From positions 6,103,501 through 6,167,500 of the forward strand of contig OX031072.1 of NCBI GenBank assembly GCA_943736015.1: a stretch of DNA of 64,000 nucleotides, written 5' to 3'. Both the position numbers and the translations under genes were made by a program. Source of the DNA: Tridacna crocea (taxonomy: Eukaryota > Mollusca > Bivalvia > Cardiida > Cardiidae). The stretch's first letter is position 1. Every line of letters starts with the position of its first letter. The notes below the pieces were generated by a model. The model was given only the letters and a program-made list of their open reading frames with translations, was not told the DNA's origin and did not search any database. This document shows positions 19,473-51,575 of the stretch, piece after piece.

Positions 19473-20058
19473 ATGGAAGACACTGTCCATGATTTCCTGA
19501 AAAAGGAGGGATGTGGTCGAACACTTCACGAAAGTACTAGAAATGGTCTTTTTGAATGCCTATGCATACATGCGTTCAAAGATAGAATGAGTGATTTCAT
19601 TAAAAAATTCAAGACATTCATGACAAGCGAGGAACAACGATGCCTGTTCAAAGGTCTTTTACGACTCGTTGACAACACGGGCAAGGTACCAGTAAAAACA
19701 GACAATGAGAATGAAAAGGAGTACAAGTTAAAACTGGATAAATGTTACGAAAACATTTTCGATAACTGCCTCGATATCCGGCCAGCCAGCGACTTTCTAC
19801 GTGTGTACCTGCTTGCCATAGCAACTTTCATCGGAAGGTCGATTTATGTTCTACAAGAGGATGAAACCAAAGAGCTTTCCTGGACGCATTTCCAGTGTCT
19901 GTACCACCATGCTGGACAAGGAGCAGAATACACGAGGCAGATGTTCATTACGATGTACTTTTCCAAGGATGATTGCTACTTGATAAATTCCTTTGCATCC
20001 AATGAAATTAAGCCAGAAAGCCATGGGTACATTGCCATATTAGAGAAGCTTTTGAAAG
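19473..20058 (+). CDS. Gene 1 exon 1: degenerate OTU-like domain
   Basis: 195 codons plus one base, ending TTGAAAG|GTGATA. The start is the ATG at 19473; an upstream in-frame GTG at 19455 lies inside the likely acceptor and was not used. Residues 24-30 read NGLFECL where OTU proteases have the Asn-Cys-Leu-Phe catalytic block, so Gly25 replaces Cys. A helix-strand segment (AIATFIGRSIYVL) and W..F then ITMYF follow in OTU order. Cys168 sits where the catalytic His is expected. The OTU assignment is from motif order only. Confidence 0.8.
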
Positions 20059-23000
20059 GTGATACCATTTCTAATAACCCTTTATACTGTATATCCGCAT
20101 TCTGATCAAAATTAAGTTGGATGCTTGTTCATGGTCTCAGAAAAAGAAGCTTAATGTGTTTACAAAAAGGGTCTGCCTGCGCAGTCCGGGTAGGCAGACG
20201 TTAGTCGATATTTTTGCTGCTGTATATTTTCTACATGTAAAAGAACCAATCTACCTCTAGATTTAGTCATCTCCTAGACTACATGGATTTTATGGATTCA
20301 TGATTACGGTATTTTGCGTCATGGAGGTGCATTTATTGCCATAGCATACCTCAAATATTTTCACCTTTGAAGAGAGAAATGGCATTATTTACCAATATAT
20401 TATCCTTTTCTCACAGTATTTTAAAGGTTCTTCCTGTACTGTTTAAGGGCTCTTTTGTAACTCGTTAAAAGGGTCTTCACTTAGGGTTCTTAAAACCCGG
20501 GATTATTTGATAAAGGGTAAATAGTTGTAAATGAGACTAACATATTCAGTCTGGTCAGAGGACAGAAAGATAGCGAAGAAAAGCTTTCAACATTTCAAAA
20601 CAGGATTTGTATGTAAGTGCGGGTGTTTAGTTTTGGTTGAAGAAAATTTCCACTTTGTCAATTGTCCTGTTAAATATGATAAATAATTTTAAATGAGTAA
20701 CCTTTTTACGTTTGAAGAAGACTTAATGATTTCCTATGATTGTTTTTTTTTTTCCAGAAATGCTTCTCATCAAATCCACAACCAAACGCTGTCTTGAAAA
20801 AATAAGTATCCGGTGTCGATTGTCAGATGTTCGAGATCGGGTCAGGGAAAGCGTGTCAACAGAAATTCGCACACAGTGTGTGTGAGTTTTTTTTTTTTCA
20901 TTTTGTATACATCTACGAAGAGACAATGTGCTCAGAAAGGGGCCCTTTTTCAGTCTTTTATGCCAGGAATCAGAATTTCTTGCAAAACACGACTAGAATA
21001 TTTTTTATAGCAATTGTATAAAAATGTAAGGTTTTATTAAACAAAAATAAGTGCAACTTTCGGCGTTTAAATAAAGGCCTCGTTGTTTTGCAATTAGATA
21101 GCACCGTCTATTATTAACATTCCCGAAAGTCTTTCAGAAATCCTGGTACGATATATAAATTACTCCACGTAAATAACCTTGCCATTTAAGGGAGAGCTTT
21201 GAATTTTTTTCTTACTTTTGCCCTTCATATTTACGGATGATTTATTTGCCAGATAAAGAAAAAGTATTCATGTGTATAGCTCCCTCAAAAGTTCTGAATG
21301 TATTTGGCTAATCTTGGCGCTGATTTATAAAATATCTCGAATTCAATTTCAGGCTATCTAATGAAATTTTGAAAGGTTTTCATCTGACTGAATTCTGATT
21401 AAATGTGTGTCGTTTGGTTAAATTCACCAAATTAACAGCCGTAAAGTAAATTTGTATACTATCTGATTTGAGTACATCCCCAACTTTCAGCTGCAGGTCG
21501 AGCAAGAGTTACTCTCCTTGGAACTTATCGATTATCTGGTCCGAAAGGATTTCCGATAACGGCCTGTCATATAGGATTCAGAAGGAAAAAATTTTTGATC
21601 GACTAAAACACATTTTTCTTCTAAAATGATTAAAATCTATAACGTCTTGAAGTATTCTGTAATATCTCTACTTTACTTCAATATAATTGTAATTGCAGTA
21701 GCAAAATGGGAAGTTGCGTCCATTTTGATTTAAAGTTACTGACCCATTCTCCTTCTTATTTCTATAGAAAGGTTTAAGAAATTTGCTCTTGCGCCGTTTC
21801 TGACGCTAAATAACATAAAAATGAATTGCAAGAAAAAAATCTATAACGTCTTGAAGTATTCTATGTTTTGTTGTAATTATGATCATAGTATTCGTTTACA
21901 TTTGTTAAATTGAGATCTTGCGTCCATTTTAGTTTAAAAACGACACTATCGTTAATTTTTGTATAAAAAATGCTGTTTAGAGCAAAGTGAGATTTTAAGA
22001 CTGGGTGAAAAGATTTAGCAACGGATAAAGGGAAGATAAGAACTGATGACATGATAACCTTGTCTGTATTGTTTTGTTAAACCTGGATCCTGTTTTTACA
22101 CATTGTCCAAAATATAATGACTGTATTTATCATTTTTATACATGTACGTGTATATTATTTGCATCATTGAAAAGTTTTAAGAGATTTGTAAAAACCATTA
22201 TCTTCCCACTATCGTCTTTTTTAATTCTTTCTCGGAAAATAATTTCAATTTAGTTAGCATAAATTTCTTTAAATTGCATTTTTATTCATTTATTTATTTT
22301 TTTTTTGTCTTTATTTCTAAAAAAGATTGAATTTGTTGTACTATTGGATCATTATAATAATTATGCAGTCAATAGACCAGTAACAAACTGTACAAAATAA
22401 GCAGTCTGATCCTGGGCCGAATCGGTTTTATTTAATGTGTCTAAATTCTTTTGGCTTAAAAAAATTGACGTTGCAATATCATTATGTGACTGAAATCAGC
22501 AGAAAACAATTTGCGTTTTGGGAGTATTGATGTGACCCGTACAGCACACTCCCGAATTTCAACGGTCCTGCATAAAACCTTTTGTAAACATTGTGAGAAA
22601 AGGAGAAATACCAATATTCAGTATTGTTTCCTTCTCCTACAATGTTTTCTACTCTTTTAAAGTGAAGAATATCAATTTAGCTACATTTGATTTATTTTCT
22701 GAAATTGCTTTTTTTAAAAGTTGGTGAAGTCAAAAAGTTCTCCATATAGGAAAAGGTTTTAAATTATTGACTTTTGAAAACACATGAGAGGGAGAAAATA
22801 CATGTGATCAGATTGAAAATAGCGAGGAAATTTGAATATGTGAGCTGTCGATAAAATACTTTTGAAAATGCATTAATCATCACACATTTGCAAGTATAGA
22901 GCTAAAGAGAGAAGGCGGCAAATTGGACTTCCTTATGCAAAATCTTGTTAAACTTGACTTTAAATCCTTATAAATAATCTCATAAAAAAAGTCTGATCTT

Positions 23001-24607
23001 AGTTTAAACATTTAGTTTTAATTTATTCAATATACTAACATCATTCATTTACAACCACATGTATTGCGAAAAGGATTGAAACGAAAGCATCAAAGCTTAT
23101 ATAGTTCCTCTTCCTAAAGAAGTCTGATTTTTTTCCTGATACATGTACTTTCTTTCCGATTACCCCTTATAAATGTATCAACGTATACCATTACGTAACA
23201 CCAATCAAGATACCCGATAGGCGTCTTATCTAACAGTGAGACTCGGTCATCATCGGAGAACTCCGGCACAATGCAAACGATCAGGGAAAAAGAAAGAAAA
23301 TACGATAGTTGCTTTAAAAAAGTGTAAAAAGGGCTAAAAATGTATTTTCTAAATGACTGAAAACTACGCCATATTAAAGAACAATAAATAAGCTTTCTGA
23401 CTTCCCTGAAGATAATTTTGAATTTCCAACAATATTGTGCAGGCTGATTTATGTTTACCGTGTGCTCACAAAACCACTGACTTCTTCTAAAAAATGACGA
23501 AATTATTTTAAACAGAACTGACCTTTTGAACATAAAGGTTAAAAAAATATAATTTGTATACGGTTTGTTTGTTTATGATAGATCAGACGATACCAGTGTG
23601 GTCTGATCTACCAACACACTTTTCCCAGCCTAATATACATGTGCGTACATGTATTTGTGACGACGCTATGCAAAACAATTACAATAAAATGCCGTCTGCT
23701 GACTATGTAATAGCTCTATGCTACAGGTTGGAAATTAATGTTTTCAAAAACATTGTAACAAGAGAAGCCTCTTCATAATATCCTTAACTTTGTGGGTAGC
23801 TATTCAGAAATATATCCTACCGACGTATTTTTACTATTGTGCCATTTTTGTTGATAAATCAATAAAAATATCAGAGATTGAATTCAAAATTATGATGAAA
23901 AGATCAGAGATAAAATTCCAAAGATGCAGTAAACATATGTGCTGTTACATTTCGAGCGTTCGTGTCGCGCTCCTCCCGCGGCTTTAGTCTCGTCATAAGA
24001 AACTTGCACTGCGGATATTTTTCTTTTTTTTTAACTCTTCAGGAGCTGGCAATGTATGACTGCCCCAATATTTAAAGCAGTTGTAGACAACACAATAAAT
24101 ATGGCTCAAATTATTCAATTTGTATCAATTAAGGCATGACAACATTGCTTGAAAAAGAGCAGTTGCTGGTCAAAAGCATATCTATAGCTGACCATAATTT
24201 TTCAAACGCACGTTTTCGGTAAAATTTGAGGTAGATCAAATTGTAAGGTCCTAAAGGAAAACAAATCCTACAAGTTTTGGTACCCCAGTAATTTACAACC
24301 CCAGATATCCCGCAGAGTTGTTTTCCAATAAATTGAAACCCTCTACACTCGAAGCGCGAAATTCGGGTTATAAGTGCAAAGGGTTTGCAGAGATCGCCAG
24401 TCAATATACAATTCCATATGTGATCGATTTCACGGCCAAAAGGGATCAAACTCTCATAATTTAATTGGCTTACATAACGGTCAAATAACAGTTACCGAGT
24501 TTGATTTGCATGATAAAGTTGGCCATGATAACTACAAAGACAATGGAGAAAGAGACAGAGAGAGAGACAGAGAAGGAGAGAGACACAGAGAGAGAGAAAC
24601 ACACAGC

Positions 24608-24651
<44 letters not shown>

Positions 24652-27600
24652 CTGCGAATGCTACGTGTGACGGTGCTAGATATCTGTATTTAAGTTTTCC
24701 ATCCGTTCTAGTCATTAAAGCCGTTCGTATAGAACTAGTCTATAAATATTCATATCGTATCCATAGGATCCACATTATCTGCTCATAAATTTTACAAAAA
24801 TCGTAAAAGTTCAGGCACGAAAGATTTATAGCGAGGAAACGGAATTCAACATGCCCGTTTATTTTCTCTCTACGCGGGGAGAATAACTGCATCACCCGCA
24901 CGGATAAACAAGCGTGGTTGGAAATGGGGGTTTAACGTCGATAAATACCTTGCCAGCCATGCGTTTTTACCTCGTGGCTAAAAGTCCATGCGGGGAAAAA
25001 AAAACCCCAACATATCGGCTTTTTACCCCACGGTAAAATATCCGCATACCCATATATAGAAACGGACATCAGCAATGCTGACGAAATGAATAAACGTTTG
25101 TCTGTTTACTAGCCCGCAAAGCTCAATTGTTAGAGCGTAGGACTCGTGAACGTGATGTTTCGAGTCACTTGAGGGTGTGGGTTAGATCCCAACGGCTTGC
25201 CAACTAAAATTTGACAGTCTTTCGGATGAGACATTAAACCGAGGTCCCGTGTGACGTTGCTTGATATCGAGCACGTAAAAGAACCAGGCGACTTAATCTT
25301 GATGGGTTTTGTCCTGTACTATCCCCCGTAACAATACTTAAAGCCTTCAGGGGGTGTCAACGATAATGGGCAAGCGCTGGCGACGATAAATAAACGCAAG
25401 TTCAATCAATACCAAGGGTAACAACCTACGTCACAGGAAGTGATATCGGACCTGGGCATTTTCATAACTTATTTCCGCCATATTGAAAAGTAAGTACGAT
25501 ATGAAGATAGAATAAGGCCAGCTTGGGTGGATACAAGCGGACTACAAAGACTCTCATGTATTTATCAAAGACATCAGATGAATACATTTATTATTTATGG
25601 ATATGTGGAAACTTTACTCTCCGGTAAAAACAATATCATGTGTTTCCGCATGGACTTCTTTTTTTTTTGGCACGATAAAAACGCATTGTTGGAAATGAGA
25701 CAAGGCAATTTAACTTGCTCGTTTGTTTTGCTCTCTTGGCATTACCATAGAAAGTGTCTGAATGGTGTTACCATCACTACTGACCACCCATGGAAATCGA
25801 CTGACAACCAAGTTTCTATAACTAAAGAAGGAAACTTGAAGAAAAGTGAAACAGAATAAAAGGAAATAATGCAAATAACACAAATGATCAAAGATGCTTA
25901 AGAAAATATCAGCATTGGGGTTCAAAAAATTGACCAGGAAGTGATATTGTCAAAAACTGTTGTTATAAATGTACATTGTAGTACAACTAGATTCCAATGT
26001 ATTCTGTGATTAAACAAACAGTACTGTTGATTATTTCAATATTTTCTGGTCCTTAGTTTAAAAAAATACTAATTAGTGTAAGGAGCAGAGTATGTGACCA
26101 GTCCGAACAGCGAACCATGCGCTAAACGAACTGGAACTACAATCATTGTTGTTTCAAAAAAATTGTAGGTTAACTTATGTTTAAATAAAATGCAGTCTGT
26201 TTTCTTGCATCATTTACAATTCGAGGAAAAAGTAACAATGAGTATCAGGCTAAAAGCCGAAGAGTATCGTACCAGCATGTGAAGGGCAAAATACGCAGCC
26301 CGTACCGGGCCCACCCTCATCGAAACAGGTTTTGTCATAAATTATTATGCGAGGTTTTGGCGACTATGAGATTCTTAGTTATCGTAGTACCTCTAGAAAT
26401 GGAAAAAACAAAAGTTCCAGTGATTGAACAGCTGAGAAATGCAGCTAAGCTACTGACATCATCACGTAATGTCGTCATACCTAGAATTGATCTGATTGTT
26501 TCATACGTAAACGGTTGACCTACATGTATCGGTAGCTTCTAGCTCATATTGTACACAGGTGAATTTCAGAAAAATATTAAATGGCGGCATGTAAACAGGA
26601 ACACGTCAGTTGATCTAAGTCAGTATTGCTGACGTTATGTTCCATATATGAATATGCGGATATCTTATCGTGTTGGTTTTTTTGCGCATGGACTTTTGGC
26701 CGGGCAGTGTTAAGGCATAGTTGGAAATTAGGCAATGAAATTTAACTTGCCCGGTTTTTTTCGCTCTCTGTGAGGAGAAAATCTGCATCACCCGCGCGGG
26801 TAAAAATGCATGGTCAAAAGCGAGGGATTAAGAATTGCTATGGACTCATGCTTGGCTTCCACACCATTGCCAACTTTGAGAAATTATGAGGTGAACAAGG
26901 TGCTCTTTGTGGAGATCGCTTCCTGATCTGCTTATTTTTAGCAAGAGTGTCGTTTTTTTATTACAAACAGCGACAAAAAGGTTTCTATTTCGCATATATT
27001 TGTGTACATCCGATATCTGTAGGTGACATCACCCTTCTGTCTGCTAGACAAGTGCAACAGTCCATATGTATCCATACCTATCTGCATTTAACAGTAATAA
27101 AAGGTAATCTAGGGTAAAGAGCTTGTTTCTGTCTTTCTCTATCCGTGTCAATTCCTACAATTTATTTTAGGCAAGACAAAGTATCTTACCGCACTGATAT
27201 TCGTATTTATGGTCGCCCTGACGTGTGTGTCCGCATGTTGTTGAGGTTATTGTTTTTCTATAAATTCATACAGAAAATGGGACCGCCTAAAATTTCTGAG
27301 GACAACTGTGAATTTTACATGTAACCGACTGTCCCGTAAACTGTGTGTGTGTGCGGCTGAGACAGAGGCCCTTTACTTTAGCTCGGCTAATTCTAAAAAA
27401 GAAGTCAACTGTTTCCAAAGCCTTGTCGTCGCCGGCCTCGTCTTGCAAAAACTTATAAAATATATATCTGTCAGTATTGGAGATATTTCAAATCTGGACA
27501 TGATGCTAACTGTCAAAAGCAAGGGTAGGTAATCATCTGTTTTGACACAGTTTGGTTCTTTTTTCGACTATTCGATGGTTGGCTGAATCTACCATCTGGC

Positions 27601-30600
27601 GGCCAAAAGACTACTTATGAATGATTTGCTTCATCTAGGCATTTTTGTTTTGTTTTTTAGGGGAAAGATGTTTTGTTTTTTGTTATGGAGATTGAATTTT
27701 TGGGCAATGATTATTACTCTAATATTCTACAGAAGGTATTTGGTCTATTTGTTTTGCTATTTGTGAAAAAAATGATCAACTGCTTAAAGCTGATTAAGTG
27801 TACAAATATATCATGATTTTGTAGATTATTGTATGAGAAGTCAACATCTAAACAGGTTAAAATGGACCATTTTACAGAACTTTTGAATGACACTGAATTT
27901 CAGCGATGTTTGTACCAGGTACTTTTTAAAACTCCTGCTTACTGCATTTGTCTGTCGTTGTATTTTCCCTAATCATCATCGTGTTTTTCTTCTTCTACTA
28001 CTTCTACTACTTCTTCTTTTTCATTATCTCCTTTCTGCGAACCTATCTAATTGGCTGTTCGGTTTCGTCTCTCTGCTAATTGCTGTAGTTGATGATGATA
28101 AATATGTATCTTTTTCACAAATAGCGAATTTATGCAATGTAAATCTGAATTAATTATGCAATGTTCTGGAAATAACAACACAACTGTACTTACCACAAAA
28201 GCCGAGACACAATTTAAAAAATTGTTCAGTTTATATGACGGTCTGTAATTGCAAACCCAACAGAGAATATATGGGAAAATTAGAGTTTTTTTAACATCTA
28301 AGAAAGGAAAGATATCTGTAACTGACTCAGAAGACGGCCAAACCTATTTTGCAGGTTTTGGTGAACAACAAAGACGGACCTACCGTATGGAGAGAAATGG
28401 GTTTGGACGATGGTAATTCAAAGTCTTTGCTCTTTTGAGTCTGAGTACATGTGCTCAAGGTCCGCTGTTAAGCCAGACTAATCACTGAAACCCTACAGAT
28501 AAGTCCATAAAATGTTTTCACCATTTAATCTTGTGTAATTTAGATGTCAAGTGATGGCAAGACCTTTAGAAATAACACCCTAATTCCATATCAAAGACGT
28601 TTCTCGCTTGTTCCATTGACACTAACAAACATATGGTAAGAATTCCTTGAACATCAAAATTTGATATTCTTACCTCGACAACTACTGCGAAAAAAGAAAG
28701 AAACCGTTTCTTCTGTATACAATTACCATTGTTCATATATTAGTTTTTTTCGAGCAAATTGGCTGGCAGTGGCTTACCGAATAAACATGTGTATATTTGT
28801 GATCAACCGTATTCATTATCCTCTGTTCATGTGATTTCATTCATACCAAAAGCAGTCCAAAGCCAGCTCATCCGCTACGGAGAAAAATTCTTCCAGATAA
28901 GCTTTTAAAGTGCTGCTTGATGATTTAATCTACAAACCGAAGCTGTGTGATGAGTATTTTTTAAAGACAATATAAGTCAGCGATCTTTTAGAAATTCAGG
29001 CCTTAGACAAATGTTGCGACATTAACATGTAACATACATGAATGTAGGCTAAGACAAGAGTATACGAAATGAGTTGATTATAACAACAATTACACTGAAA
29101 GCAGTAGTATTTATTGAAGAGCAATAAAAATATCGTGCATTAACTGCCTACCTGTCATGGCCTTTTTGGTGATGACCTTTCAGGTCTTACCTTCTTATGT
29201 CAACCATAAAAATTAGTCCTTTGACGACTAACCATTCTTTTGGTTTCGAGTGAAATAGGTCAAAGAACTAACGCAGGTGCGTCATTTATTAGGTAAAAAT
29301 AACGTGCAGATTGAAAAACTATACGAGCCAATTATACAAACAATAGATTCAGAGTTAAATATAAAGGAATTAGCACAATATATTTTATATTTGCCTCATA
29401 TTGCAGATGTAACATGTAACATGGCCCACTTTGTCAAGTCTACATCAAGGATAAATAAGTAAGAGAAAACACCCAAGCAAGAACACGATATCAAACGAGT
29501 TTGATGATATACCCGCGCAGCCGAATCTATCAAACCGTCGTAAAAGCAAAATGCTAACAATTGTCAGATTCTTTCTATCGCATAACTGTTATTTTAATAG
29601 TGTTACAATACTCCTAACAACCATTCCATCCCGTATGTGGATTCACCGGCCTTTGAAGCTCAAATAATAAATAACGGCACTCTGAAATTTTCATTGGTAT
29701 ATCATCGAACATTGTTAATGAAAATAGCACATAGCTGCATCCCATCTTTATCGTATATATTAACTCAAGGTTGGCAAAGGGTTCAGGAATGAATTGTTCA
29801 TAGTTCTCCGACCTTCGAATGTTTCATATCTTTCTGGCAACCGGGCAGTGTCGCTGATCTTATGAATTTTATAAAACGCTATTGCACTTTCCGGATGCAA
29901 CGCCATAATGTCTCAACCTTCATGATCCATGGACCAATTGATATTCATATAAATTTGTTATCAAAAGTTTTTTACCAGTAAATGTTGAATACGCATTTGA
30001 AAAGATGCAAAATGGAAGATGAAAATCGTGATGCTGATTAGATGAAATAAAAAATCAAAGATGTAACAGACGAAATAATATTTTGATAATTTCATAAATT
30101 TATTAACCGAAATTTTTTTTTTTTTTGTTTTAACAAGAGTATTTAGATCGTATACTCGGTATTTCACGATGGAGTTTGTGGCGTCCACGCATGGCAATCC
30201 GAAAAATGTTAGTTTTCTTTTGAAACGGTATCCGAGGATCGTGCAATGAAAATTCTGGTATTCCGTGATAGATAGTTGCGATAGTCTGTGGTAGATCTCA
30301 TGACTGAGACAAGCTCACATCTTAGAAAGATGACTGAGACAAGCTCACATCTTAGAAAGAAGTGTATGTCTTTCATGGAAAATATTTCAAATGAATCTGA
30401 CTCAATTTTCATTCGCGGATTCCAAGCTAGTAATATTATTGATATTTTTTAAGATGAAGAGTTATTTTTTAGGCAGTTTAGATGCATTGAATCATGAAAA
30501 CGTAACTTTTCATAACAAGACTGTTGAAAGAAGGCAGCCTTTATAATATGCTGATTTTATACTTGCATTACTTCTCAAAGACTTGTTACAATTGCTACTA

Positions 30601-31525
30601 AACCTACAGAGGCGATATAGATCTAGTGGTGATTTTTATCTATTTATTTATTTTTTAAAAACGCATGACAAGTATTTCAATGAAAGGTGCCTTTTCAGCC
30701 TAAAATATATGTACATCATAATTTACAAGTTGATACTTTTCATGAAAGGTACATAATAGGATTTCTTTTTTGTCAGATTTCGAGCCTTTGCAGTGCCATA
30801 ACGAATTGGTAGCGTTAGAGAAAACCCTCCTTGATCTCGATAAAAGAGTTCAACGATTTGTGGAAATGTGTAGAGCAACTAAAGAAGAATTAAATCAGAG
30901 AAGAAGTTCTGTTAACAAAGCAGTTATCGGTGGTTCAGTAGCTGGCATTTTCGGTGGAGGTTTGACCATTGCAGGACTGGTACTTGCCCCTGTTACACTC
31001 GGGACTTCCTTGATTCTGACGATATCAGGGGCTTCTCTTAGCATTGCAGCGGGGATAACAGGGGGAACAGCTCGTGGTGTTGAAGCAGTTAAACAGAACA
31101 GTAGCATCAATGAAATAAAGCGCGAACTAGAAGGGATTACCAAACAAGAACAGCAGTTTGAGTCGCATGTAAATGACGTTACATCTATAATCATGGCTTT
31201 CACACAGCAATGTCTTGATGAAAATGTGGAGGTACCTGGAATTAACCTGAGGGGTTTTGGTGCAATTGGATCTGCTTTAAGAACCATAGGAGGTACAGCA
31301 ACTATAGTTACCGGAGTCCTTCGAGTTGGCACAGCTGCATTAGCTGTACCATCCTTTGTCCTAGGTCCTTTGTCAATATTAACTGATATTGGGTTTCTTG
31401 CTGAAGCAGCGCATGATTTACGCACCGGCTCGAAAACAGGGGCAAGTGAAAAATTGCAGGAGAATGCCAAAACAGTTGAAATGAAAATGAATTATTTAAA
31501 TTGCATGTATCGAGGCAACTGTTGA
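19473..31525 (+). CDS. OTU-like/APOL-like fusion gene 1 (five coding exons, 536 aa)
   Basis: Coding exons are 19473-20058, 20758-20881, 27825-27918, 28355-28412 and 30777-31525. All introns have GT/AG ends, the phases join (1, 2, 0, 1), and the summed length of 1611 bases is 537 codons including the stop. Residues 1-195 resemble an OTU fold but lack the catalytic Cys and His. Residues 196-288 are a conserved linker of unknown fold. Residues 289-536 form an apolipoprotein-L-like region: amphipathic helices, a Gly/Ala-rich hydrophobic hairpin (about 336-386) and a second hydrophobic block (about 447-502). No signal peptide is seen, so a cytoplasmic protein that associates with membranes is likely. 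APOL proteins insert into membranes, form channels and act in innate defence in vertebrates; that role here is inference. Gene 2 at 44618-51575 has the same exon layout. An acceptor-like AG at 19459-19460 suggests a 5' UTR exon further upstream. Confidence 0.85.
20155..20222. repeat. Hairpin repeat fragment in intron 1 of gene 1
   Basis: GTCTGCCTGCGCAGTCCGG and GTAGGCAGACGTTAG form a short fold-back related to 15362 and 57883. Confidence 0.45.
20370..20522 (+). repeat. Decayed family A fold-back in intron 1 of gene 1
   Basis: The family right arm is recognisable (AGGGTTCTTAAAACCCGGGA, then TTTGATAAAGGGTAAA). The core has lost most pairing. Confidence 0.45.
20758..20881 (+). CDS. Gene 1 exon 2: linker with STEIR motif
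   Basis: 124 bp between a poly-T tract ending TTTCCAG and the consensus donor TGTGT|GTGAGT. It enters with two bases and leaves with two, encoding KRCLEKIS, RESVSTEIRTQCV and neighbours. The paralogous exon at 46951-47080 conserves RC...IS, STEIR and CV as well as both phases. That conservation is the main reason for calling it. Confidence 0.82.
20882..22549. other. Intron 2 of gene 1, first part
   Basis: A+T-rich, with no exon-like segment on either strand. There is a near-repeat of AATCTATAACGTCTTGAAGT at about 21634 and 21838, which implies a local duplication of about 200 bp. Confidence 0.5.
22550..22740 (-). repeat. Family A fold-back, decayed
   Basis: AAACATTGTGAGAAAAGGAG and CCTACAATGTTTTCTAC arms surround ATACCAATATTCAGTAT at about 22608-22626. 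The inner arm is changed on both sides. Confidence 0.55.
23005..23117 (-). mobile_element. 5'-truncated 3' UTR of the right-edge retrotransposon
   Basis: It matches 61470-61580 closely through CGAAAGCATCAAAGCTTATA and TAGTTCCTCT, and includes TTTATTCAATATA near the tail. The match stops at about 23117, as expected for a target-primed insertion that ended early. It lies in intron 2 of gene 1, opposite to transcription. Confidence 0.7.
23118..24544. other. Intron 2 of gene 1, no exon seen
   Basis: A 139-residue open frame on the minus strand (23114-23533) overlaps the retrotransposon tail and has no recognisable family, so I do not call it. Family A fragments may lie near 23740-23775 and 24070-24175. 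Confidence 0.4.
24545..24650. repeat. (GA)n microsatellite
   Basis: GAGA and GACA runs, uninterrupted GA at about 24612-24649. Confidence 0.92.
24840..25105 (-). repeat. Dispersed repeat (family H), copy 1
   Basis: Contains TTTTCTCTCTACGCGGGGAG, CATCACCCGCACGG and AAGTCCATGCGG. The same words occur inverted or direct at 25600-25760 and 26610-26850. It flanks a SINE. Confidence 0.55.
25112..25405 (+). mobile_element. tRNA-derived SINE, copy 1
   Basis: The head has GCTCAATTGTTAGAGCGTAG (A-box region) and GGGTTAGATCCCAACGG (B-box-like). The body has the TCTTTCGGATGAGACATTAA, CGAGGTCCCGTGTGACG and CACGTAAAAGAACC block that is a conserved SINE centre. The same block occurs on the minus strand at 41795-42055. 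It lies in intron 2 of gene 1. Confidence 0.75.
25600..26850 (+). repeat. Family H repeats, copies 2 and 3
   Basis: Copy 2 is at about 25600-25760 and copy 3 at about 26610-26850, sharing GCATGGACTT, TTGGAAAT.AG and AATTTAACTTGC.CG with each other and, inverted, with 24840-25105. Nothing coding is seen between them. Confidence 0.5.
27825..27918 (+). CDS. Gene 1 exon 3: linker, LYQ end
   Basis: 94 bp, acceptor ATTTTGTAG|A and donor TACCAG|GTACTT. The single first base completes the Val codon opened by exon 2. It encodes LLYEKSTSKQ then FTELLNDTEFQRCLYQ. The partner exon at 48274-48373 encodes FTKLIEDTNLQRCLYK at the same place and phase. The alternative acceptor at 27856 breaks the frame and was rejected. 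Confidence 0.82.
28355..28412 (+). CDS. Gene 1 exon 4: 58-bp micro-exon
   Basis: Acceptor TTTTGCAG|G and donor GATG|GTAATT. It encodes VLVNNKDGPTVWREMGLDD plus one base. The partner at 49767-49824 has the same length, phases and pattern (KDG..W..MG.DD). Confidence 0.85.
28413..30776. other. Intron 4 of gene 1
   Basis: Mostly featureless. A 68-codon open stretch after an AG at about 29259 is in the wrong phase for exon 4 and was not called. Confidence 0.5.
30301..30360. repeat. Exact 30-bp tandem duplication
   Basis: Two identical 30-base units, each starting TGACTGAGACAAGCTCACAT, with no mismatch. This is probably a recent slippage event in intron 4 of gene 1. Confidence 0.95.
30777..31525 (+). 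CDS. Gene 1 exon 5: apolipoprotein-L-like domain
   Basis: Acceptor TTTTTTGTCAG|AT; two bases complete the Asp codon begun in exon 4, then 248 codons and TGA. After an amphipathic N-terminal helix region there is NQRRSSVNKAV, the Gly-rich hydrophobic hairpin with VLAPVTLG, and a C-terminal GFLAEAAHDLRTGSKTGAS block followed by a helix. This order (hydrophobic hairpin with an APxT-type turn, then a late hydrophobic stretch and charged C-terminal helix) is the APOL family layout. Exon 5 of gene 2 is clearly homologous. Confidence 0.88.
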
Positions 31526-32170: not shown

Positions 32171-32220
<50 letters not shown>

Positions 32221-39945: not shown

Positions 39946-40070
39946 TCGGATGGTTTTCGACTACTGGGGTTTAATGAAAGAAAATTATACGACTTTGGGA
40001 GTATAAAGATTTTTTTTTGTATTTTTGTAAAATTTTTGTCCCAAAATCTGAAGGGCCACCTGTAACACAT
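39946..40070 (-). repeat. Family G fragment
   Basis: Inverted match of 18726-18845, with TTTTCGACTACTGGGGTTT and TGTCCCAAAATCTGAA-type words. Confidence 0.6.
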
Positions 40071-41075: not shown

Positions 41076-41794
41076 AGGAATAAATTGCGAAACAAAGTTT
41101 GTATTGAGCACTCTAGTAACATGCGTAATGGATGCTTCGCTCTTGTGTAGGTATAAAGCAATGGAAATCCCCGTATGGCACTCGCAAGAATTCGTTCAGC
41201 CAACTCGCAAGTAATGTACAGATCATTTACTTGATATTTGCAAGAAGGGTACAGTATCAAATCGTTTGCCATGCAGAATTTCCATACATTTTTAGGTAAT
41301 TTTAACAAATTTTGTCGGCATATATTGGCTGTTTTGTGAAGAGCATACATTTAGAAACAAAACTTTACAAATGGGTATCGGATAAATAGACGGAATTATA
41401 CATAAATTGCCCTGTGAAAACAGCATGTATAGTAGTGAGCAAAAGAAGTGAAGACGAGTATTGCACTTTATCAGCAATTACATGACCAAAGATGGTAAAT
41501 GGTGTATTTATTTGAAAGATACATTATTTCATTCAATGATGCAAATGTTTACAAGTTGCGTGAAAGTCACAACAACCTGTCGATCTCAATTATTCAAAGG
41601 TACCCACCTGTTTTCACCAATCGATTCATGGAATTTACTCGCAAGATCCGGTTTGGGTACAGTTCGTTTATATACTGTGAGTTTTGTTGTCTGATGAAAA
41701 GTTAATGTCCCTACTGACATTACGTCGTTCATTTTGCAGAAGTCAGTGCAGGTAGGAATCAGTTGAAGATAGTGGGTGTGGTTTATTTATCTGA

Positions 41795-42055
41795 TTTGCA
41801 TTTATTTATCGTCGCCACAGATTGCCCATATGGGCGACGCCCCCTTAAGGCTGTTAGTATTGCTACGGAGGAAGTGCTGATACAGAATGAAACCCATCCT
41901 AAGTTACGCCTTGTTCCTTTACGTGCTGGGTGTATAGCACCGTCACATGGGACCTTGATTAAATGTATTACCCGAAAGACTATTTGTAATTTTAGAGGAT
42001 CAGCCCAGGGAATCGAACCGAAACCCTCAGGTGACCCGAAAACATCCCAATCAGA
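41795..42055 (-). mobile_element. tRNA-derived SINE, copy 2
   Basis: On the minus strand, GGTTCGATTCC (a good B box) is followed by GTCTTTCGGGTAATACATTT, CAAGGTCCCATGTGACGG and GCACGTAAAGGAAC. This is the same central block as at 25200-25290, so the two form one family. A family D fragment abuts it at 42053. Confidence 0.75.
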
Positions 42056-42189
42056 AGTTGTGTTACTTTCCAAATTAGAATATTTTGGAGAATAAGAATA
42101 AAAACATTCTAATGAATGGTTGGTCAACACTTCAGACTGAAAGAGTCTTTTGATATCTTATTTGGGCATTTATTGTTTGTTGAAAAAAA

Positions 42190-42420
42190 TCATTAGATTT
42201 ATTCAACAGACAAAAATTTAGACGCTTCCATTTTTGAAAGCTTTTGCGGACGAAGATTGTACTTGAATCAAGTTATTATATTTGCCCTTAGAAACACAGA
42301 AAACTATGTTGGGAAAAGGAGACAATGCTATAGTAACTAGAATTTTCCCTTGTTTCTAAAATGTTTCCAAGAACCTTCGTTAGGTTTGCTATTTCTCAGA
42401 ATTATTTTATAACTAGATAA
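42190..42420 (+). repeat. Family A fold-back, decayed
   Basis: GGGAAAAGGAGACAATGCT and ACTAGAATTTTCCCTTG preserve about half the pairing. Confidence 0.5.
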
Positions 42421-43600
42421 GTGAGGCCCAGATAAGCACATCATCATTTACACAAATACAGATAAGCGGCGGTCTGGATCACAGGCGTTATGTCGATCTT
42501 CGCCACCTATATAATGTAACAGAGCTAAGATAAGAGGGAGTAATGATGTTCTAAATTCGTTAATCCTCTTCCAAACCCTATGAGACGATTCTAATGAACA
42601 CCCATAAAAGGGGGTTTATTAATAATTATTTTCTGTTATGAAATTAAAATCACTCCCTCTATCTGGAGCTCTAATGTAATATGTAAGTCTTATATATTAC
42701 ATCATATAGGTGAAGAAGTTCGTCATAACATGAACGCCTGTGGTCTGGATGCATTATACCCAGCAAGCGATCAAATAAAACTATGGGTCCATAAAATCTA
42801 ATTTGTCAAATAACCGACTGCATCTGGTAGTAGTCTGGTTCATAGGATATGCAAAAAAAAAAAGAACAATGTCAATAGGTTTCATGTTGCAGATTACTGA
42901 AATCTCCTCACAGAGCATGAATCAGATGTACATCGGTCTATTTTGCTGTAGCATATACTGTGCCATTTAATTATCCATAATTGCAGTCTTTACAGGGGCT
43001 TTGAATCAGATTCCCCTCCCCCTTTTAGGGGCTGGGTGGAGGAGAATTAAGAAATATTATAATTTGTAAGAAAAAAATCATGGCGATGCGACTGTTTACC
43101 CTCAGTTGGAAAAAAAAACGAAAAAAATGGCTCCAAAGTGGCTTAAATCGTCCACTTTTATTTTAATTTATATTACTTTTTATGAGCGTTTCCTTTACCA
43201 TTTGAAATGACGAAAAAGCCGAGAGAAATAAACCACTGGGGTCATTTTTTTACGTAGAATAATGACCCTTAGGTCATTTTGTAGGGAAGGTCTTTTCTCT
43301 GCATTACACCGGCACGCTTGCACCAGGATACCCCATATCTGTATCTTTGGAGTACTTTGAACAAAAAGCATGACACAGGCTGATAACGACTCGATGGCTG
43401 CTAGATTTTGATTGGTGTCCTTGACTTGTCTGATAGGTGTAGAGGAAATGATACAGTCTCTCAAACTGAATATTCTAGATTCAAGAAGGGTGATGAGTAA
43501 TATCGTTGAAACTAGGGGTATTTTTTGCTGCGAGTCATAGGTCTCTATCAAGGATTTAAGGTACATGTATACCCTGCCCCCCAACTCTCATGTTAAAAGA
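42421..43600. other. No gene recognised
   Basis: A 129-residue minus-strand frame (43195-43584) is open but shows no family motif or splice context. I leave it uncalled. Confidence 0.4.
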
Positions 43601-43790
43601 CGGAAGTTGACTAAATTTGCCGAATAGCCTTTACGAAAACGTCGATGTTACACGATATTTACCGATGAGTAAGTAAGTCTAAGCCCAAAACTATCATATT
43701 ATACTTCGGAAGTTGCCGAGATTGGCCAAATAGCCTTTACGAAAACGTCGATGTTTACAGATGAGTTAGGGTCGTAGACCTTCACAAGCA
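43601..43790. repeat. Imperfect direct duplication of about 107 bp
   Basis: CGGAAGTTG at 43601 recurs at 43707, and AATAGCCTTTACGAAAACGT follows in both units. Confidence 0.75.
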
Positions 43791-43855
43791 AGGCGTGAAA
43801 CTACTCGAATGAATTATATTAAACCGGAGTTAGCTAAGCACCAACACTGACTTTT

Positions 43856-43935
43856 TGCCGACAGTGTAGCCCAAGATCAGACTTTACAAAACATGCAATA
43901 TGATCTTAGGTCTGCATTGTCTGATAAAGGCATTT
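43856..43935. repeat. GATC-hairpin repeat fragment
   Basis: CCCAAGATCAGACTT and ATATGATCTTAGGTC arms with the TTGTCTGATAAAGG tail. Confidence 0.5.
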
Positions 43936-44617
43936 TCCGTCCGTGCCCTCTTTCCCCCCCTCCCCCCTACACACATATACAAATTCCTTCGACTGAAAAT
44001 TCGTAATTTTACTCTGAGCTTATAAGTTTCATTTAACTTATTGAGCAAGCTAAGAGCTCATAATATTGGAGTCATCTCGTCATTCTTCCTGTTTTTCTAT
44101 CCGAACATTAAAATTTTGTCTTGAGCCTTTCTTCCAAAGTTTGAGTAAATAAGTCATTGGCTTCAAACTTCAGAGAGAGATAGATCACATTGTTCACAAG
44201 CGTAGTGCACAATATCTGAAGCGATATCTTCAGTATTTAAGGAGTTGTTTCCCCTTTTCATAGATTTATTCTTTTGGTTTGTTCCTGAGCAGTTCTATAA
44301 AATGTATTGATTTTCACTTCAGATACAGAAAACAATGAGGAAACGTGCAGTCCACAGAAGTAATTGGCTTTCGTTATTTCACACATTTTTTAAATAATTA
44401 TCTGTTCCTACGTAGCGTTCTTAAATCATTTAGATAAAAATAGAATGAAGCGGAAGGGTATAAAATCTAACTTGGTCAACAATAGTGATAACAATCACGA
44501 GTACTTAACACGATAAGCGATGGGATTGACATACATATACAGGTTAAATCAATAATCATTTTCAAACACATAACTTGAATAATTCTTCAGTGTCATACAT
44601 CTGGAATTGTCTTTAAA

Positions 44618-45215
44618 ATGGAAAGCAATGTTTCTACTTTTCTTCAGAAGGAAGACTGTGGTCGCTTGTTGATCAAAGAATCGGAGAATGGTCTCTTTGA
44701 ATGCCTAAGCTCACATGGATTTCATGATGAGGTTGAAAACTTTCAGAATATGTTCAAGTCGTTCATGCAGAGAGACGAAGAGAAAACATTATTCAAAAGT
44801 ATTCTACAGCTGTTAGACAACACCGGAGGAGTACCCATGAAGTCGAAACAGGAGAATGACAGAGTGTTTAACTCAAGATTAGAAGCATGTTATCAGGACA
44901 TCGTTATGAATTGTTCAAATATCCTACCAGATACAAACTTTCTTCAAGTGTACGTGTTTGCCATAGCAACTCTTATTGGCAGGCCAATTTATATTCTTTA
45001 CAAGGATGAAAACGAGGAGCTGTCGTGGTTGTATTTTCCTTGGTTGTACAGCCACACTTACGACGAAATCAGACAGAACACAAACTACACAGCACAACCG
45101 TACATTACCATGTACTTTTCCGAAACTCGTTGTTTCATGATAGAGTCCTGCGGTACAGTATGCATGGAACCCAAATCCTACGGATGTCTTGGGATGTACA
45201 AAGAGGGAATGAAAG
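44618..45215 (+). CDS. Gene 2 exon 1: degenerate OTU-like domain
   Basis: 199 codons plus one base, ATG at 44618 and donor ATGAAAG|GTATTT. It aligns with gene 1 exon 1 along its whole length: FLQKEDCGR, NGLFECLSSHGF, LLDNTGGVP, AIATLIGRPIYIL, ELSW and ITMYF. Several Cys residues near the end (C172, C178, C182, C190) are specific to this copy. Confidence 0.82.
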
Positions 45216-48200
45216 GTATTTTTATCACATCCTTTTAATCATGCATTCTGGAGGGTTGCCTTGGAAAGTATCAAAAGATAATGATGTACACCTTTACCCC
45301 GCAAATAAAGAATAGTCTGAGCTGCTTGTTTTACAACCAGAGTTTTGCTGGCACAAGAAAAAAAAAGGATCTCATTTATATTTCTCTCCTCCATTTCAGC
45401 TAAGATTTATAATTTAGGGCGTAACGACACGCAGTTATAAACACGTGCAGCTGGTTAACATTAGCTGTCATTGTTCGGTGTCTAAAGCTGCTTTTACAAC
45501 TATTTCAGCTATATATCTCGGCGTCAACTGCAGTTATATCTATCCATGCGTCTTCGTTTGGTCTTTGCACAAGCAGAACGCTCAACATCCTCTCCAAGAC
45601 GCTGGCTGCTGTCCAGATAGCTATGATAAAATCAATTCTCAGCGGTGCGAGAGGAATAGATTCTACCTAAAAGTGTAAAATACGACCAGGCTACCCCTTG
45701 GTAACTAGCCCTGTGCATTAATTGTAAGGGTACAGGAACTAGTTATCCTTGTGCGTAGGGAAATGAAAAAAAAACACACGTGACATTTACTAAGCGAACA
45801 TTATTGATTACCGAGATTAAGACAAGTATCTTTGTGCGTAGGGATTTGATAAGAAGGGTACACTCATCGTATTAAGGGGACAATCAGAAAAGAGTTTGAT
45901 CTGATTTTACAGCTTTTTTTCACAGTTCAACATGTATAGCACAATGTGGCATATTCGCTTGCCAAATGGTGACACAACTTTGCTCTAAGGATAGAGCAAC
46001 ATGGTAACCGTTGTCAATGCCTAGCGAAGATGCTTTATCGGTTATTTGCTGTGGTAGTGGACCTAAAATCCTATACCCTATATAGATGTCTGAATAGCTA
46101 TGCCTGAACAGCTATGTCAAACATTTGTGATACGAAACAAAACATTTCTTTTGAAATGCCTGGTGCCCTAGAAAGGGACTTCATGTTAAATAAAGCAGCC
46201 TTGCTGTAGTTTCGTTGTGAAACACTCTTGATTTTGGTATTAAGATTTCAGTTTGTTATCCCAATCAGAGCTTAGAATACGAAAAAATCAAAGCATTGAG
46301 AACAGTGGTGTGGCATTTGTCAAGGAAGCCATTGTGTGGAATTATTGAAAAAAAAAACAAAACAGAAAGATAGTATTAAATGTTGATTTGAAAGTCAACC
46401 TAGCAGGCAAATTAATACATTTTTTGTTAAAAGGAGAGTGTTGGTGCCAAAGTTGGGATTATTAATTTTGTATATTCGATCATTCACAAGAGGAGTCGGG
46501 AGTAATACAATCAGTTATTCCGATTTATGAATATTCATGCACATTCAAATGGATTAGCGCGCAATCCTGGGACGAACAAGCCCTTGGAAAAACTCGTTTT
46601 GAAATTAACAAGCACGGAATCAAAGCGGTCAATAGACAACTTTTTATATGTCATTGTGCCAACGGAAGGCTGTGAGCGGGTGAAGTTACATAAAAAAAAG
46701 AAGTATTTTCAAGATCGATGGCCTGAATTAGTTTATTTCAGTACGCCATTTCCAATTACCGAATGCTACAAGAATGTTGTCAGTCTGGCAGAACGATGGT
46801 ACCAAGCTAAGCTTCCTGTCGTTAGAGTACCTCGCAGTACAGTTTTGAACTATGCTCTGTCTGCACAGTATATTCAGTTTGATATTGACCTGCGCCATCA
46901 GCAAAAGAACCCACTAAACTGAGTTCACTTCAGCCCACTTTTTCTTTCAGCTATTCTTCAGAGAGAAAACATTACAGAGCGATGTACTAGGCAAATTAGT
47001 CGACAAATCAGCTTGTCAAGTCAAAGCATGCAAGATTATCTCAAGCAAAACATGTCAACAGAGATTCGCAGAGAATGTGTGTATGTATTTTGCTACTACG
47101 TTAGGGTGCGATACTCGGTTGCAGCGAACTTTCTTTCCAGTGATTTTTCGCCTCCCACTTCTGATGCATGTGAGAAAAGTAGTCGGCTGCTTATGAAAGA
47201 AATTCGTGATAGGACTGGTGCGAGAAAGCCAGGAAACACCATGGATTCGTCACTGATCGCAACGATATGACCGAAGCTGTTATAATGGCGTTAAACTCCA
47301 ATACAAATCTTATGACGTTGGAATGTTTGTAGTGAAAGAGTTCTGTTTAAAGTCAGTCTTTGTTTCAAAAGAAAAACTCAATTACTGTCATTGCCCAGAT
47401 GTCATCCGTATCGTCTTCGTCGTCATGTGAAGATTTTTTTTTTAGAATTATACCGGTCATAACTGAAGATATTTACTTCAAATTGGAACTAATTCTCAAA
47501 CATCGAGACGGAAACTCTCTCTAATATAACAGGTAATCATCGCAATACTTTCAACAGACTTATGCCCTCTTTTTTTATGAGAATTATCATTATGAAAGCA
47601 ACTAGAGACGGGCGTTGGCCTCGGTGGTTGCTCTTGTTTAATTTGATTCCTGGTTTTAAAACTGATATTTAATGCCTGTTTAAGCCTGGATTCTTGCATA
47701 TAGAGGATAGTAGCTTTCCACACGAACCATTAACCCTTTACTCCACAGATACTCATTTTACCGCATTGCTTGTAGGAGCCTTTGGAAAACATTGTGGCAA
47801 AAGGTGAAATTGCTCGTGACGAGCAATTTCACCTTTTGCCACAATGTTTTCTATGCTATCAAAAGGTGTCATATACACATAAAAAACAGCTTCATCCTTG
47901 CTGTTATTTAGGGTCAATTAGAGATACCATAGAAATGTCTTATGGGGTAAAGGGTTAAACAGACAACTTACAATAACCAAGTTAATATAATTATTAACAT
48001 TACTCAAAGAATTCCGTAATAAAGGAAAACAGAAATATCAAACTTTAACCTGGTAAAGAAATGAAACTTACTAGCCGAGGGTAAGAAACCCGATTGTTGC
48101 AATTTCAAGGGTATTTTTTAGGGGTAATGACTCCTTAGCTGTGCAGTCTGATCTTGATCTACACTGTCCACAAAAAGATCACTGAGCAGCTTTCGGCAGC

Positions 48201-51200
48201 TTTAGGGTTAAGATACTCCAGTACTAACATAAGTCTAATAAGCCAACGGATAATTATTCACTGAACTTTGCAGGTCATTGTATGGGGATGAAACGTCAGA
48301 GAGATTAGATACTGAAGAAGCATTCTTTACTAAACTTATAGAAGACACTAACCTACAACGATGCTTGTACAAGGTACAGTGTCATTTGGTTGTACAGTAT
48401 GACAAAAATATGCGGGTTAGAAACTTTAATTGTACCCCCCATCCACAAAGAAGTGGAGGGGGTAAACTGTAACCGCTATGTCCGACTGTCCATCCGTCCG
48501 TCCGTAGACACAAATTTGTCCGGAGCAATACTCCAACACTTTTTGCGGTACTGAACTCAAATTTACACACAGTGGTTCTATATATATGAAGTTATGCTGT
48601 TCAATTTTCATGAGCCTCTTGCGATTTTTTGCGGAATTATCTCACCTTGGACTTTTTTCAACTCTTACTTCTTACTCTTACTAAACCAATCTGCATTCTG
48701 TGACAAAGACCTGTTTTGTGACAACGAGTTTGTGGGCGGTGTAATCACTTTTAGTGATAGCTCTAGTTTCAATCAGAAACCATGAAAACCCTTCTTCTTT
48801 TTACATGTTTACAAGTCAGAAGAAGCTAGGTACAAAATCGTTGCAACCTTTATTGTATAAATAATCGCCAAGATGAATGCTCAACTAAAACTCAATCGTA
48901 AAGACGGAAGCTTGATGAAAAGTTAAAAAAAGAATTTTAAAGTCAAACAATTCTAAAATGATTATTTATAATCAAAACGTTGTTTTAAAAAAGGGCTCTG
49001 GAAAAGGGAAGAGATACAAATGAATGCTTTTAAAAATTATTTGCGGTATACAGTCTGGATCATTTTTGCTGTTTTGGTTTAACTTGATTTTTCATTCGTA
49101 GTAGCATAATTTCATAATTGTCATAAACGACATCTTGTGTATTTACTTTTCTATGACTTTTTTGTACCGTCCATTTACTAGTCATAATATTATCTAGGCA
49201 GTGACGGAACATTTTGAATATCCCCTATATCTTTGGGACAAGGGAAGAGGAGTTGGTCATTTTAATGACCAATAGCGAGTTGGCTGCAAAAGGCTGTTTT
49301 CCTGGTACAATCGGATTCTAACAGTTTTTGTCTGAAAAGAAAGATTACGCCGGGGTCTTCTGCTTGCCAAAGAATTAGAACGCTAGGTACAATGATTGAT
49401 ATACATGTATGAAGACCGGCGATGCAAGTATGGAAGCCGGCTATGCTTTAGTCTCGGGCCCTTCAACTAGGCTATTACTGACATTGACGTTACTGCCGCA
49501 GCGGTGAATAGCTTTAACTCTTTACCAAACGACAAAATTTTAGACTGGTCCAAATTGAAAGCATTTGCAGACGACAAAATAAAAGTGACTGAAAATTTGA
49601 AATTTGTTTTGTGAAGGGTAGAAAACATTGTGGGAAAAGGAGAAAATGCTGGTTACCAGCATTTTCTCCTTTTCCCACAATGTTTTCTAAAGGCTCCTTT
49701 CTCAGGGGCATCAAAAGTAGGGATTGTGTGGTAATGGGTTAAAGTATAAGCAAACTTATTTTACAGGTGTACTTGAGACACAAAGATGGACTTACACTAT
49801 GGAAAAGAATGGGCTTTGACGATGGTAAAGTGTTTCTTTGTTCATCTGTTTGCAGTTTACCATTTTACCAAAAGACAACATTTTAGACTGGTCCAAATTG
49901 AAGGTAGTTGCAGACGACGAAATGAATGTGACTAAAGAATCAAAATTTATTTGAAGAAGGGAAGAAAGCATTGTGGAGAAGGAAAAAATGCTGGTTACCA
50001 GCATTTTCTCCTTTTTCCACAACGTTTTCAAAAGGGTTCTTTCACAAAGTCTGGACTGTGTGGTTAAGGGATAATTAATGTCTTTTCAACAGGTATATCA
50101 ACAAATTAAAGATTTAGTTTACGAGGATATGAACAACCGACGAGCATAGCAAATTTATGGTGTTTCATTTCTAAAACTATGGGCTCTTAAAAACTTCTGA
50201 GCAAGAACTAAAATCAATTATCATAGTATATGAAACAGTATAGTTTCTTTGAACCATATAACATTTTCAAAGTTCAAATTATGGTTCGGGCCTTATAGAT
50301 GCAGTTGAAGCTAATAAATAGCCTAAACTAGTAAACAGCCGAACCGCAGACTCAGTTAAATTATTTTGTGTGTATCCCTCGGTGCTTGATTACGTTCCTT
50401 TCTTCAAACGTTGTACGGCGCATTGCACGTTTGAAGTCGGAACTTTTTTTCCGTTTACAAAATGTTTGTCATGAAATCATGAATTTACTTTTAATTTTTA
50501 TCTACCCAGGCTTTTGGAATTAAGATGACCGGCCATAGCGTCGTCATAAGCATTATAAATTGCGCTTGGTAACACATCAGTCATATTTGCCCTTTAAGAT
50601 TCCTTCCTCAACCATGACCATTGTTACGGCGACGGTAATGTGGGAAAGAAGCAAGTTGCTTGGGAAGACTTTGCTCGAAGCACTGGTACAAAAACCCCAT
50701 AAAAGAAAAGCATGGATAGGTGCACTGGCCAATGCGATATATCTGAAACCATATCGAAACCGAGTTTCAACACAAACAAACAAATTCTTTCAGGTTTCCT
50801 ACCATTGGGATTTAATGAAAAACTGACGAAGCTGGAAGCAGTCCATCTTCAGTTGGATGATGTTGCGACTGAACTTGTGGAAAAATGTAGAAAAACCATT
50901 ATAGAATTGAGCCAAAGAAGGAGTTCTGTTAACAAAGCCGTAATTAGTGGTGCTGCTGTTGGTATTGTGGGTGGAGGTCTCACAGTCGCGGGGCTTATAC
51001 TGATCCCTTTTACATTTGGAGCCTCTTTAGGTCTTACCATAGCAGGGGCTTCTCTTGGCGCCGCTGGGGGTGTTACCGGTGGAGCGGCTCGTGTTGTAGA
51101 AGGTGTGAAACAAAATACGAGTGTCAGTGAAATTAAGAGCCAGCAAGAATCCACTGCTGTCCAGGAGAATATGTTTGTGTCACTTATACAGGATATTGAT

Positions 51201-51575
51201 GATATGATTACCTCCAACTCTGGAAGGTGTCTGAAACACGGCGTTGAAGGACCCGGAATTAACTTAAAAGGTTTCCTCGCAGTAGGGTCAGCGGTGCGGT
51301 CCATGCATAGTGGATTAGCTATCGCATTTGCGGCTCTTCGAGTTGGTGCTACTGGGGCGAATATAGCTGCCTCTGTACTAGGTCCTTTGTCCCTTGCCCT
51401 TGATATTGGGTTTCTTGCCGAAGCAGCGCATAATTTACGCACAGGGTGTAGTACAGGGGCCGGTCAAATCTTGGAGCAAAATGCCAAAGCAGTTGAAATG
51501 AAGATGGCTTTCTTTAGGTGCATGGTTCGGGGCAACCGTCCAAAAACAGAGAAACTTACTGGATATCCTTTTTAA
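44618..51575 (+). CDS. OTU-like/APOL-like fusion gene 2 (five coding exons, 555 aa)
   Basis: Coding exons are 44618-45215, 46951-47080, 48274-48373, 49767-49824 and 50794-51575. Their 1668 bases make 556 codons including the stop, with the same phase pattern (1, 2, 0, 1) as gene 1. Residues 1-199 are the OTU-like region (Gly25 and Cys172 at the expected catalytic positions), residues 200-295 the linker, and the rest the APOL-like region. Relative to gene 1 the C-terminus carries an extra basic tail after the RGN motif (about ten residues). Introns are shorter than in gene 1 but have gained fold-back elements. Same strand, same order and about 13 kb apart: this is a tandem duplication. An acceptor-like TTCTTCAG at 44583-44590 suggests a 5' UTR exon further upstream. 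Function is not proven; APOL-like domains point to membranes. Confidence 0.86.
45216..46526. other. Intron 1 of gene 2, no exon seen
   Basis: No credible exon or intact repeat before the open frame at 46527. Confidence 0.5.
46527..46922 (+). CDS. Unplaced 131-codon open frame in intron 1 of gene 2
   Basis: An ATG-initiated frame that ends at a TGA 28 bp before exon 2. The translation is not low-complexity and includes NFLYVIVPTEGCERV, DRWPELVYFSTPFP and NVVSLAERWY, so it may derive from coding DNA. It has no counterpart in gene 1 intron 1 and no obvious splice sites, which suggests a remnant of an inserted element or pseudogene. I do not recognise the family. Confidence 0.25.
   Translation: MNIHAHSNGLARNPGTNKPLEKLVLKLTSTESKRSIDNFLYVIVPTEGCERVKLHKKKKYFQDRWPELVYFSTPFPITECYKNVVSLAERWYQAKLPVVRVPRSTVLNYALSAQYIQFDIDLRHQQKNPLN
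46951..47080 (+). CDS. Gene 2 exon 2: linker with STEIR motif
   Basis: 130 bp, acceptor TTTTTCTTTCAG|CT and donor TGTGT|GTATGT. It encodes ITERCTRQISRQISL, then MQDYLKQN and MSTEIRRECV. Splice phases equal those of gene 1 exon 2. The frame stays open past the donor, but only splicing joins it to the conserved exon 3. Confidence 0.83.
47730..47958. mobile_element. TTAA fold-back element, family B, full copy
   Basis: Ends TTAACCCTTTACTCCA and TGGGGTAAAGGGTTAA are inverted copies of each other. The core is a near-perfect palindrome centred on GCTCGTGACGAGC. It lies in intron 2 of gene 2. Confidence 0.88.
48134..48211. repeat. GATC-hairpin repeat, half copy
   Basis: TGTGCAGTCTGATCTTGATC, CACTGTCCACAAAAAG and a TTAGGGTTAA end; the left arm is missing. 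It is 63 bp upstream of exon 3 of gene 2. Confidence 0.55.
48274..48373 (+). CDS. Gene 2 exon 3: linker, LYK end
   Basis: 100 bp, acceptor CTTTGCAG|G and donor TACAAG|GTACAG. It encodes SLYGDETSERLDTEEA then FFTKLIEDTNLQRCLYK. It is two codons longer than the gene 1 exon, with the same phases. Confidence 0.84.
48374..49513. other. Intron 3 of gene 2, first part
   Basis: No exon. A short hairpin-like CCCCCCATCCACAAAGAAG / GTGGAGGGGGTAAAC segment and a run of TCCGTCCGTCCG occur at about 48430-48505. Confidence 0.45.
49514..49742 (+). mobile_element. TTAA fold-back element, family A, near-consensus copy
   Basis: Terminal arms TTAACTCTTTACCAAACG and TGTGTGGTAATGGGTTAA, with a perfect-looking core of about 67 bp centred on GCTGGTTACCAGC. 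It ends only about 24 bp before the 58-bp exon 4 of gene 2, so it supplies or displaces the branch-point region. Confidence 0.9.
49767..49824 (+). CDS. Gene 2 exon 4: 58-bp micro-exon
   Basis: Acceptor ATTTTACAG|G and donor GATG|GTAAAG. It encodes VYLRHKDGLTLWKRMGFDD plus one base, then joins exon 5 in phase. It matches gene 1 exon 4 in length and phase. Confidence 0.87.
49857..50076 (+). mobile_element. TTAA fold-back element, family A
   Basis: Arms ACCAAAAGACAACATTTTAG and GTGTGGTTAAGGG, core centred on GCTGGTTACCAGC. It begins about 32 bp after exon 4 of gene 2, in the same orientation as the copy on the other side of that exon. Confidence 0.8.
50794..51575 (+). CDS. Gene 2 exon 5: apolipoprotein-L-like domain
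   Basis: Acceptor AAATTCTTTCAG|GT, then 259 codons and TAA. Motifs shared with gene 1: RRSSVNKAV, a Gly-rich hydrophobic hairpin ending in GGVTGGAARVVEGVKQN, VEGPGINLKGF, VLGPLSLALDIGFLAEAAH, NLRTG and EMKM. The first hydrophobic hairpin contains IPFTFG where gene 1 has APVTLG, the position of the APOL turn. Frames read straight through the intron upstream are open but lack conservation. Confidence 0.88.

Follow-up and report, generated by a model that had tools for sequence, protein, structure and literature searches.

Apolipoprotein L (APOL) proteins have been studied mostly in primates and mice, and we know of no human APOL that carries an OTU-like domain. Here, two tandem genes predicted to join both parts in one protein are described from the bivalve Tridacna crocea. 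They lie in a window of 64,000 nucleotides, the whole stretch analysed (assembly GCA_943736015.1, contig OX031072.1, positions 6,103,501 to 6,167,500), where they span 19473..51575 from the first base of gene 1 to the last base of gene 2. Human APOL1-6, notably APOL3, resemble the encoded proteins in having a C-terminal domain above the cut-off of Pfam family PF05461 and two hydrophobic regions. However, in ApoL1 and ApoL2 the membrane segment is preceded by an N-terminal domain of four helices (PMC8316464). Human APOL3 kills cytosolic bacteria once GBP1 breaches their outer membrane, as described in excerpts of PMC12091997 and PMC13177371.

Comparable systems also exist on the OTU side. Human FAM105A/OTULINL is a pseudo-OTU with a disrupted catalytic triad that resides at membranes resembling the endoplasmic reticulum (ER), with no ubiquitin binding detected and with ER-contact proteins as partners (PMC7862380, cited from excerpts). 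It is likened to the two genes by description rather than by sequence, as an altered OTU linked to membranes, but it differs in its N-terminal membrane motif and its lack of an APOL domain. A second group is formed by the OTUD1/OTUD5-type deubiquitinases: both are among the fold-search matches of gene 1, OTUD1 is among those of gene 2, and a locus elsewhere in the same genome provides a link in sequence. Unlike these enzymes, the two genes read no catalytic Cys or His at the aligned positions. To our knowledge, OTUD1/OTUD5-type deubiquitinases carry no APOL domain.

Two tandem genes with five predicted exons each

Both genes lie on the same strand and are each predicted to consist of five exons, encoding proteins of 536 (gene 1) and 555 (gene 2) amino acids that share 49% identity. 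Every internal boundary has AG before and GT after the exon, and the phases (1,2,0,1) are common to both genes. The coding lengths are 1611 nt and 1668 nt, and the ATG used is in each case the first in its open frame. A preliminary description of the window had reported two same-strand paralogs with these splice ends, matching phases and protein lengths; the observation is confirmed by the rebuilt gene models, whose exons are as follows:

Gene 1, exon 1: 19473..20058, + strand, OTU-like domain (amino acids 1-195); Gly25 aligned with the catalytic Cys and Cys168 with the His
Gene 1, exon 2: 20758..20881, + strand, connector region
Gene 1, exon 3: 27825..27918, + strand, connector region
Gene 1, exon 4: 28355..28412, + strand, connector region; 58 nt, the same length as in gene 2
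Gene 1, exon 5: 30777..31525, + strand, APOL domain (about amino acids 289-536), PF05461; ends with the stop codon
Gene 2, exon 1: 44618..45215, + strand, OTU-like domain (amino acids 1-199); Gly25 aligned with the catalytic Cys and Cys172 with the His
Gene 2, exon 2: 46951..47080, + strand, connector region
Gene 2, exon 3: 48274..48373, + strand, connector region
Gene 2, exon 4: 49767..49824, + strand, connector region; 58 nt
Gene 2, exon 5: 50794..51575, + strand, APOL domain, PF05461; ends with the stop codon

Comparison of the two gene regions (19.0-32.5 kb versus 44.0-52.5 kb) reveals protein similarity at five places in conserved order, along with repeat-like similarities. When frames of gene 1 were searched with tblastn against the 8.5-kb gene 2 region, even the short internal exons were recovered (exon 3, E 4.0e-8; exon 4, 2.2e-8; exon 2, 6.8e-7). 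Enumeration of splice sites within narrow ranges gave four in-frame combinations for gene 1, of 530, 534, 532 and 536 amino acids, and the last was preferred as the best fit to gene 2. For gene 2, the enumeration started at 44621, one codon past the ATG, and produced many in-frame combinations, from which the 555-residue model was picked by homology and by its phase match to gene 1.

Over the whole gene (Nei-Gojobori method, 536 codon pairs), the nonsynonymous rate (dN) is 0.404 and the synonymous rate (dS) 1.298, a dN/dS of about 0.31 that is rough because dS is near saturation. Taken exon by exon, dN is always the lower of the two rates, with exon 4 contributing only 19 codon pairs. This pattern points to purifying selection, under which both copies seem to have remained since an old duplication.

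OTU-like and APOL-like parts

The C-terminal part clearly belongs, by its Pfam scores, to the apolipoprotein L family. The full gene 1 protein reaches 68.5 bits against PF05461 (E 8.9e-19), above the curated cut-off of 25.9, while the frames of the last exon, with a few residues from outside the exon, reach 72 bits in gene 1 and 53.1 bits in gene 2. When the genome was searched, the match of gene 2 covered positions 93-293 of the 298 in the PF05461 model. Hydropathy peaks fall at amino acids 333-370 and 451-489 in gene 1, and at 348-386 and 456-504 in gene 2. A weaker Pfam match of gene 1, to SseC (E 0.0017), lies below that family's cut-off. Alpha-helical pore-forming proteins of the Hemolysin BL L1 type also show a weak local likeness to the APOL hydrophobic stretch, covering just about 90-120 residues around a glycine-rich segment, which may be shared composition. 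A bacterial pore-forming origin of this exon was set aside, as the Hemolysin BL L1 matches (E 5.1e-5 with a single sequence, 0.0041 with a profile) compare with 8.9e-19 for ApoL.

The connector, comprising exons 2-4 and the start of exon 5, has no ApoL match in Pfam and matches nothing among PDB sequences, even at an E limit of 10. Neither of these searches supports its assignment as a death fold or as an ApoL N-terminal domain.

Exon 1 is supported as an OTU-like domain by several lines of evidence, although in Pfam scans neither gene's exon 1 reaches the OTU family (PF02338). AlphaFold2 models of the exon are of low confidence, with a mean predicted local distance difference test (pLDDT) of 49.8 for gene 1 and 46.0 for gene 2. 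In fold searches with these models, all 50 PDB matches listed per gene were OTU-type deubiquitinases, with best E values, both from low-confidence models, of 0.012 (gene 1) and 0.010 (gene 2). At the sequence level, exon 1 of gene 2 resembles L015, a locus on contig C6 of the same genome whose OTU domain is recognised by Pfam, retains the catalytic Cys and His and resembles the solved domain of OTUD1 (E 4.6e-9). A single BLASTP pairing gave 26/65 identities at E 6e-9, a value to be read with caution because L015 ranked top among the five OTU rows compared and had first been spotted by eye after the translations had been viewed. Against all five rows, none of 1000 shuffled sequences reached the gene 2 score of 91 and four reached the gene 1 score of 57, while the APOL and connector parts scored 28-38. 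Profile-profile comparison (hhalign) gave a probability of 84.7% (E 6.7e-6) over 43 columns. The modelled exon may adopt a full OTU fold. In Pfam, the family IBP39 gave the best score for exon 1 (E 0.0067; 16.7 bits, with 25 needed) and stayed under its cut-off, and the best matches to PDB sequences (E 0.12 and 0.19) were taken as chance.

In a MAFFT alignment, the column of the catalytic Cys contains Gly25 in both genes, beside the invariant Asn24 and Phe27, and the His column reads Cys168 in gene 1 and Cys172 in gene 2. All five aligned OTU rows keep the Cys and the His. An active OTU protease has its Cys where the first helix begins and its His in the last strand. This arrangement is not found, at mapped positions that fall beyond the stretch significant by BLASTP or hhalign. 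Because Gly25 and Cys168/172 appear to replace the catalytic residues, the domain is probably a pseudo-protease, like human OTULINL. The preliminary description had proposed the same OTU-like and APOL-like architecture. This part of its interpretation stands, with the APOL call carried by Pfam scores and the OTU call by fold searches with weak models and partial similarity to L015. Its term 'ubiquitin-fold-related' was inexact, as OTU denotes a ubiquitin-binding fold of cysteine proteases and not a ubiquitin fold, and the apparent loss of the catalytic residues had gone unnoticed.

Possible function and alternative explanations

No hydrophobic window over the threshold occurs near the start of either gene. 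Because the ATG is also the first in its frame, the gene products are likely to be cytosolic, unless an upstream exon exists. Our preferred reading, to which we assign a probability of about 0.55, is that the proteins are APOL membrane effectors of the cytosol, which a non-catalytic OTU domain directs or gates. In the predicted layout, each protein begins with a domain of OTU fold in which the catalytic Cys and His have been lost, continues through a connector of about 95 residues and ends in an APOL domain containing two hydrophobic regions. The dead OTU domain would serve as a binding or gating module for ubiquitin or a partner protein, and would bring or hold the APOL domain. The latter could then insert into a membrane and permeabilise or remodel it, for example around an intracellular microbe. 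Since no ubiquitin binding has been detected for OTULINL, ubiquitin binding by this OTU domain should not be assumed.

We infer a possible role in innate defence, for which there is one outside hint. In RNA-seq of the mussel Mytilus galloprovincialis, 'Apolipoprotein L' leads the listed non-shared transcripts of hemocytes by read number, and the excerpted source gives no sign of an OTU part (PMC4581086). If true, a conserved fusion of APOL with a protease-dead OTU domain would unite in one gene a fold of the ubiquitin system with membrane attack. It would also open to experiment the question of whether ubiquitin, or a partner from its pathway, can guide APOL effectors, and would add a probable pseudo-OTU at the membrane, a class so far represented by OTULINL.

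The strongest competing explanation, although an unlikely one, is a housekeeping function, in which the dead OTU domain scaffolds contacts of the ER or of organelles while APOL acts as a membrane-remodelling module, with no part in defence. The membrane location and ER-contact partners of OTULINL, together with its undetected ubiquitin binding, favour this explanation (PMC7862380, in the parts available), as does the proposal that APOLs govern membrane dynamics, mitophagy included (PMC13177371). However, the position of an APOL transcript at the head of the hemocyte-only list in Mytilus speaks against it. More speculative still is a one-polypeptide immune effector, in which the dead deubiquitinase would read ubiquitin, for instance in a coat around a microbe inside the cell or around a damaged vacuole, and deliver the fused APOL domain to that membrane. 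This would join two jobs that in human cells are divided between separate proteins, the coat protein and APOL3.

Two further explanations are considerably less probable. Separate OTU-like and APOL genes could be neighbours that were duplicated as a cassette, leaving the five-exon protein as a construct on paper. The length of the intron that follows exon 2 of gene 1 (about 7 kb) and the shortness of exons 2-4 would suit such a cassette, but the three internal exons are similar, of equal phase and joined in frame in both copies, and together have a dN of 0.435 against a dS of 0.948 (92 codon pairs). The least probable explanation, a membrane-tethered deubiquitinase active through a displaced Cys (e.g. 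Cys29 or Cys168/172), draws on the conservation of these residues in both genes and on the place of Cys29 in helix 25-33 of the low-confidence gene 1 model, but is countered by the Gly and Cys read at the Cys and His positions that all five same-genome OTU rows preserve.

Distribution and genomic surroundings

A profile search of the 1.05-Gb genome (five candidates scored) found ApoL at four places, namely the two genes described here, one on contig C7 and one on C18. A genome search with the exon 1 protein, run at E up to 0.1 and scoring four candidates, found no third copy. In the regions of about 20 kb around the C7 and C18 places (L005-L008), tblastn with both full proteins recovered APOL stretches and chance matches only, with no OTU-like exon. 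No description of the OTU-APOL pairing was found among the listed titles and abstract openings of a literature drawn mostly from outside subscription journals, in searches of which a part combined OTU and APOL terms and whose listings were capped. The main text of PMC8195603 contains neither 'OTU' nor 'ApoL', and PMC3595286 names apolipoprotein L solely in its reference list.

The C7 copy (L005, 6281-8377, - strand) is an open frame of 699 amino acids with ApoL at residues 23-148 (34.6 bits), followed by a long extension without any family over its cut-off. Frames resembling reverse transcriptase were seen by eye nearby, in L006. The C18 copy, near 781 kb (L004/L007/L008), scores 29 bits in the genome search and 25.1 as a protein scan, where the cut-off is 25.9.

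The same genome holds 40 matches to PF02338, from which the two genes are absent. Sixteen of the 40 lie in open frames of at least 800 amino acids, and some score equally across contigs. These long frames and equal scores on different contigs suggest that OTU domains occur in mobile elements of this genome.

Within the window, which has no match in Rfam, a C-type lectin frame (56764-57078, - strand; PF00059, E 6.2e-12) lies about 5 kb downstream of gene 2. A short repeat family, seen by eye, recurs across the window in both orientations, for example at 49967-50032, 52166-52222 and 13340-13660, and is also present on other contigs.
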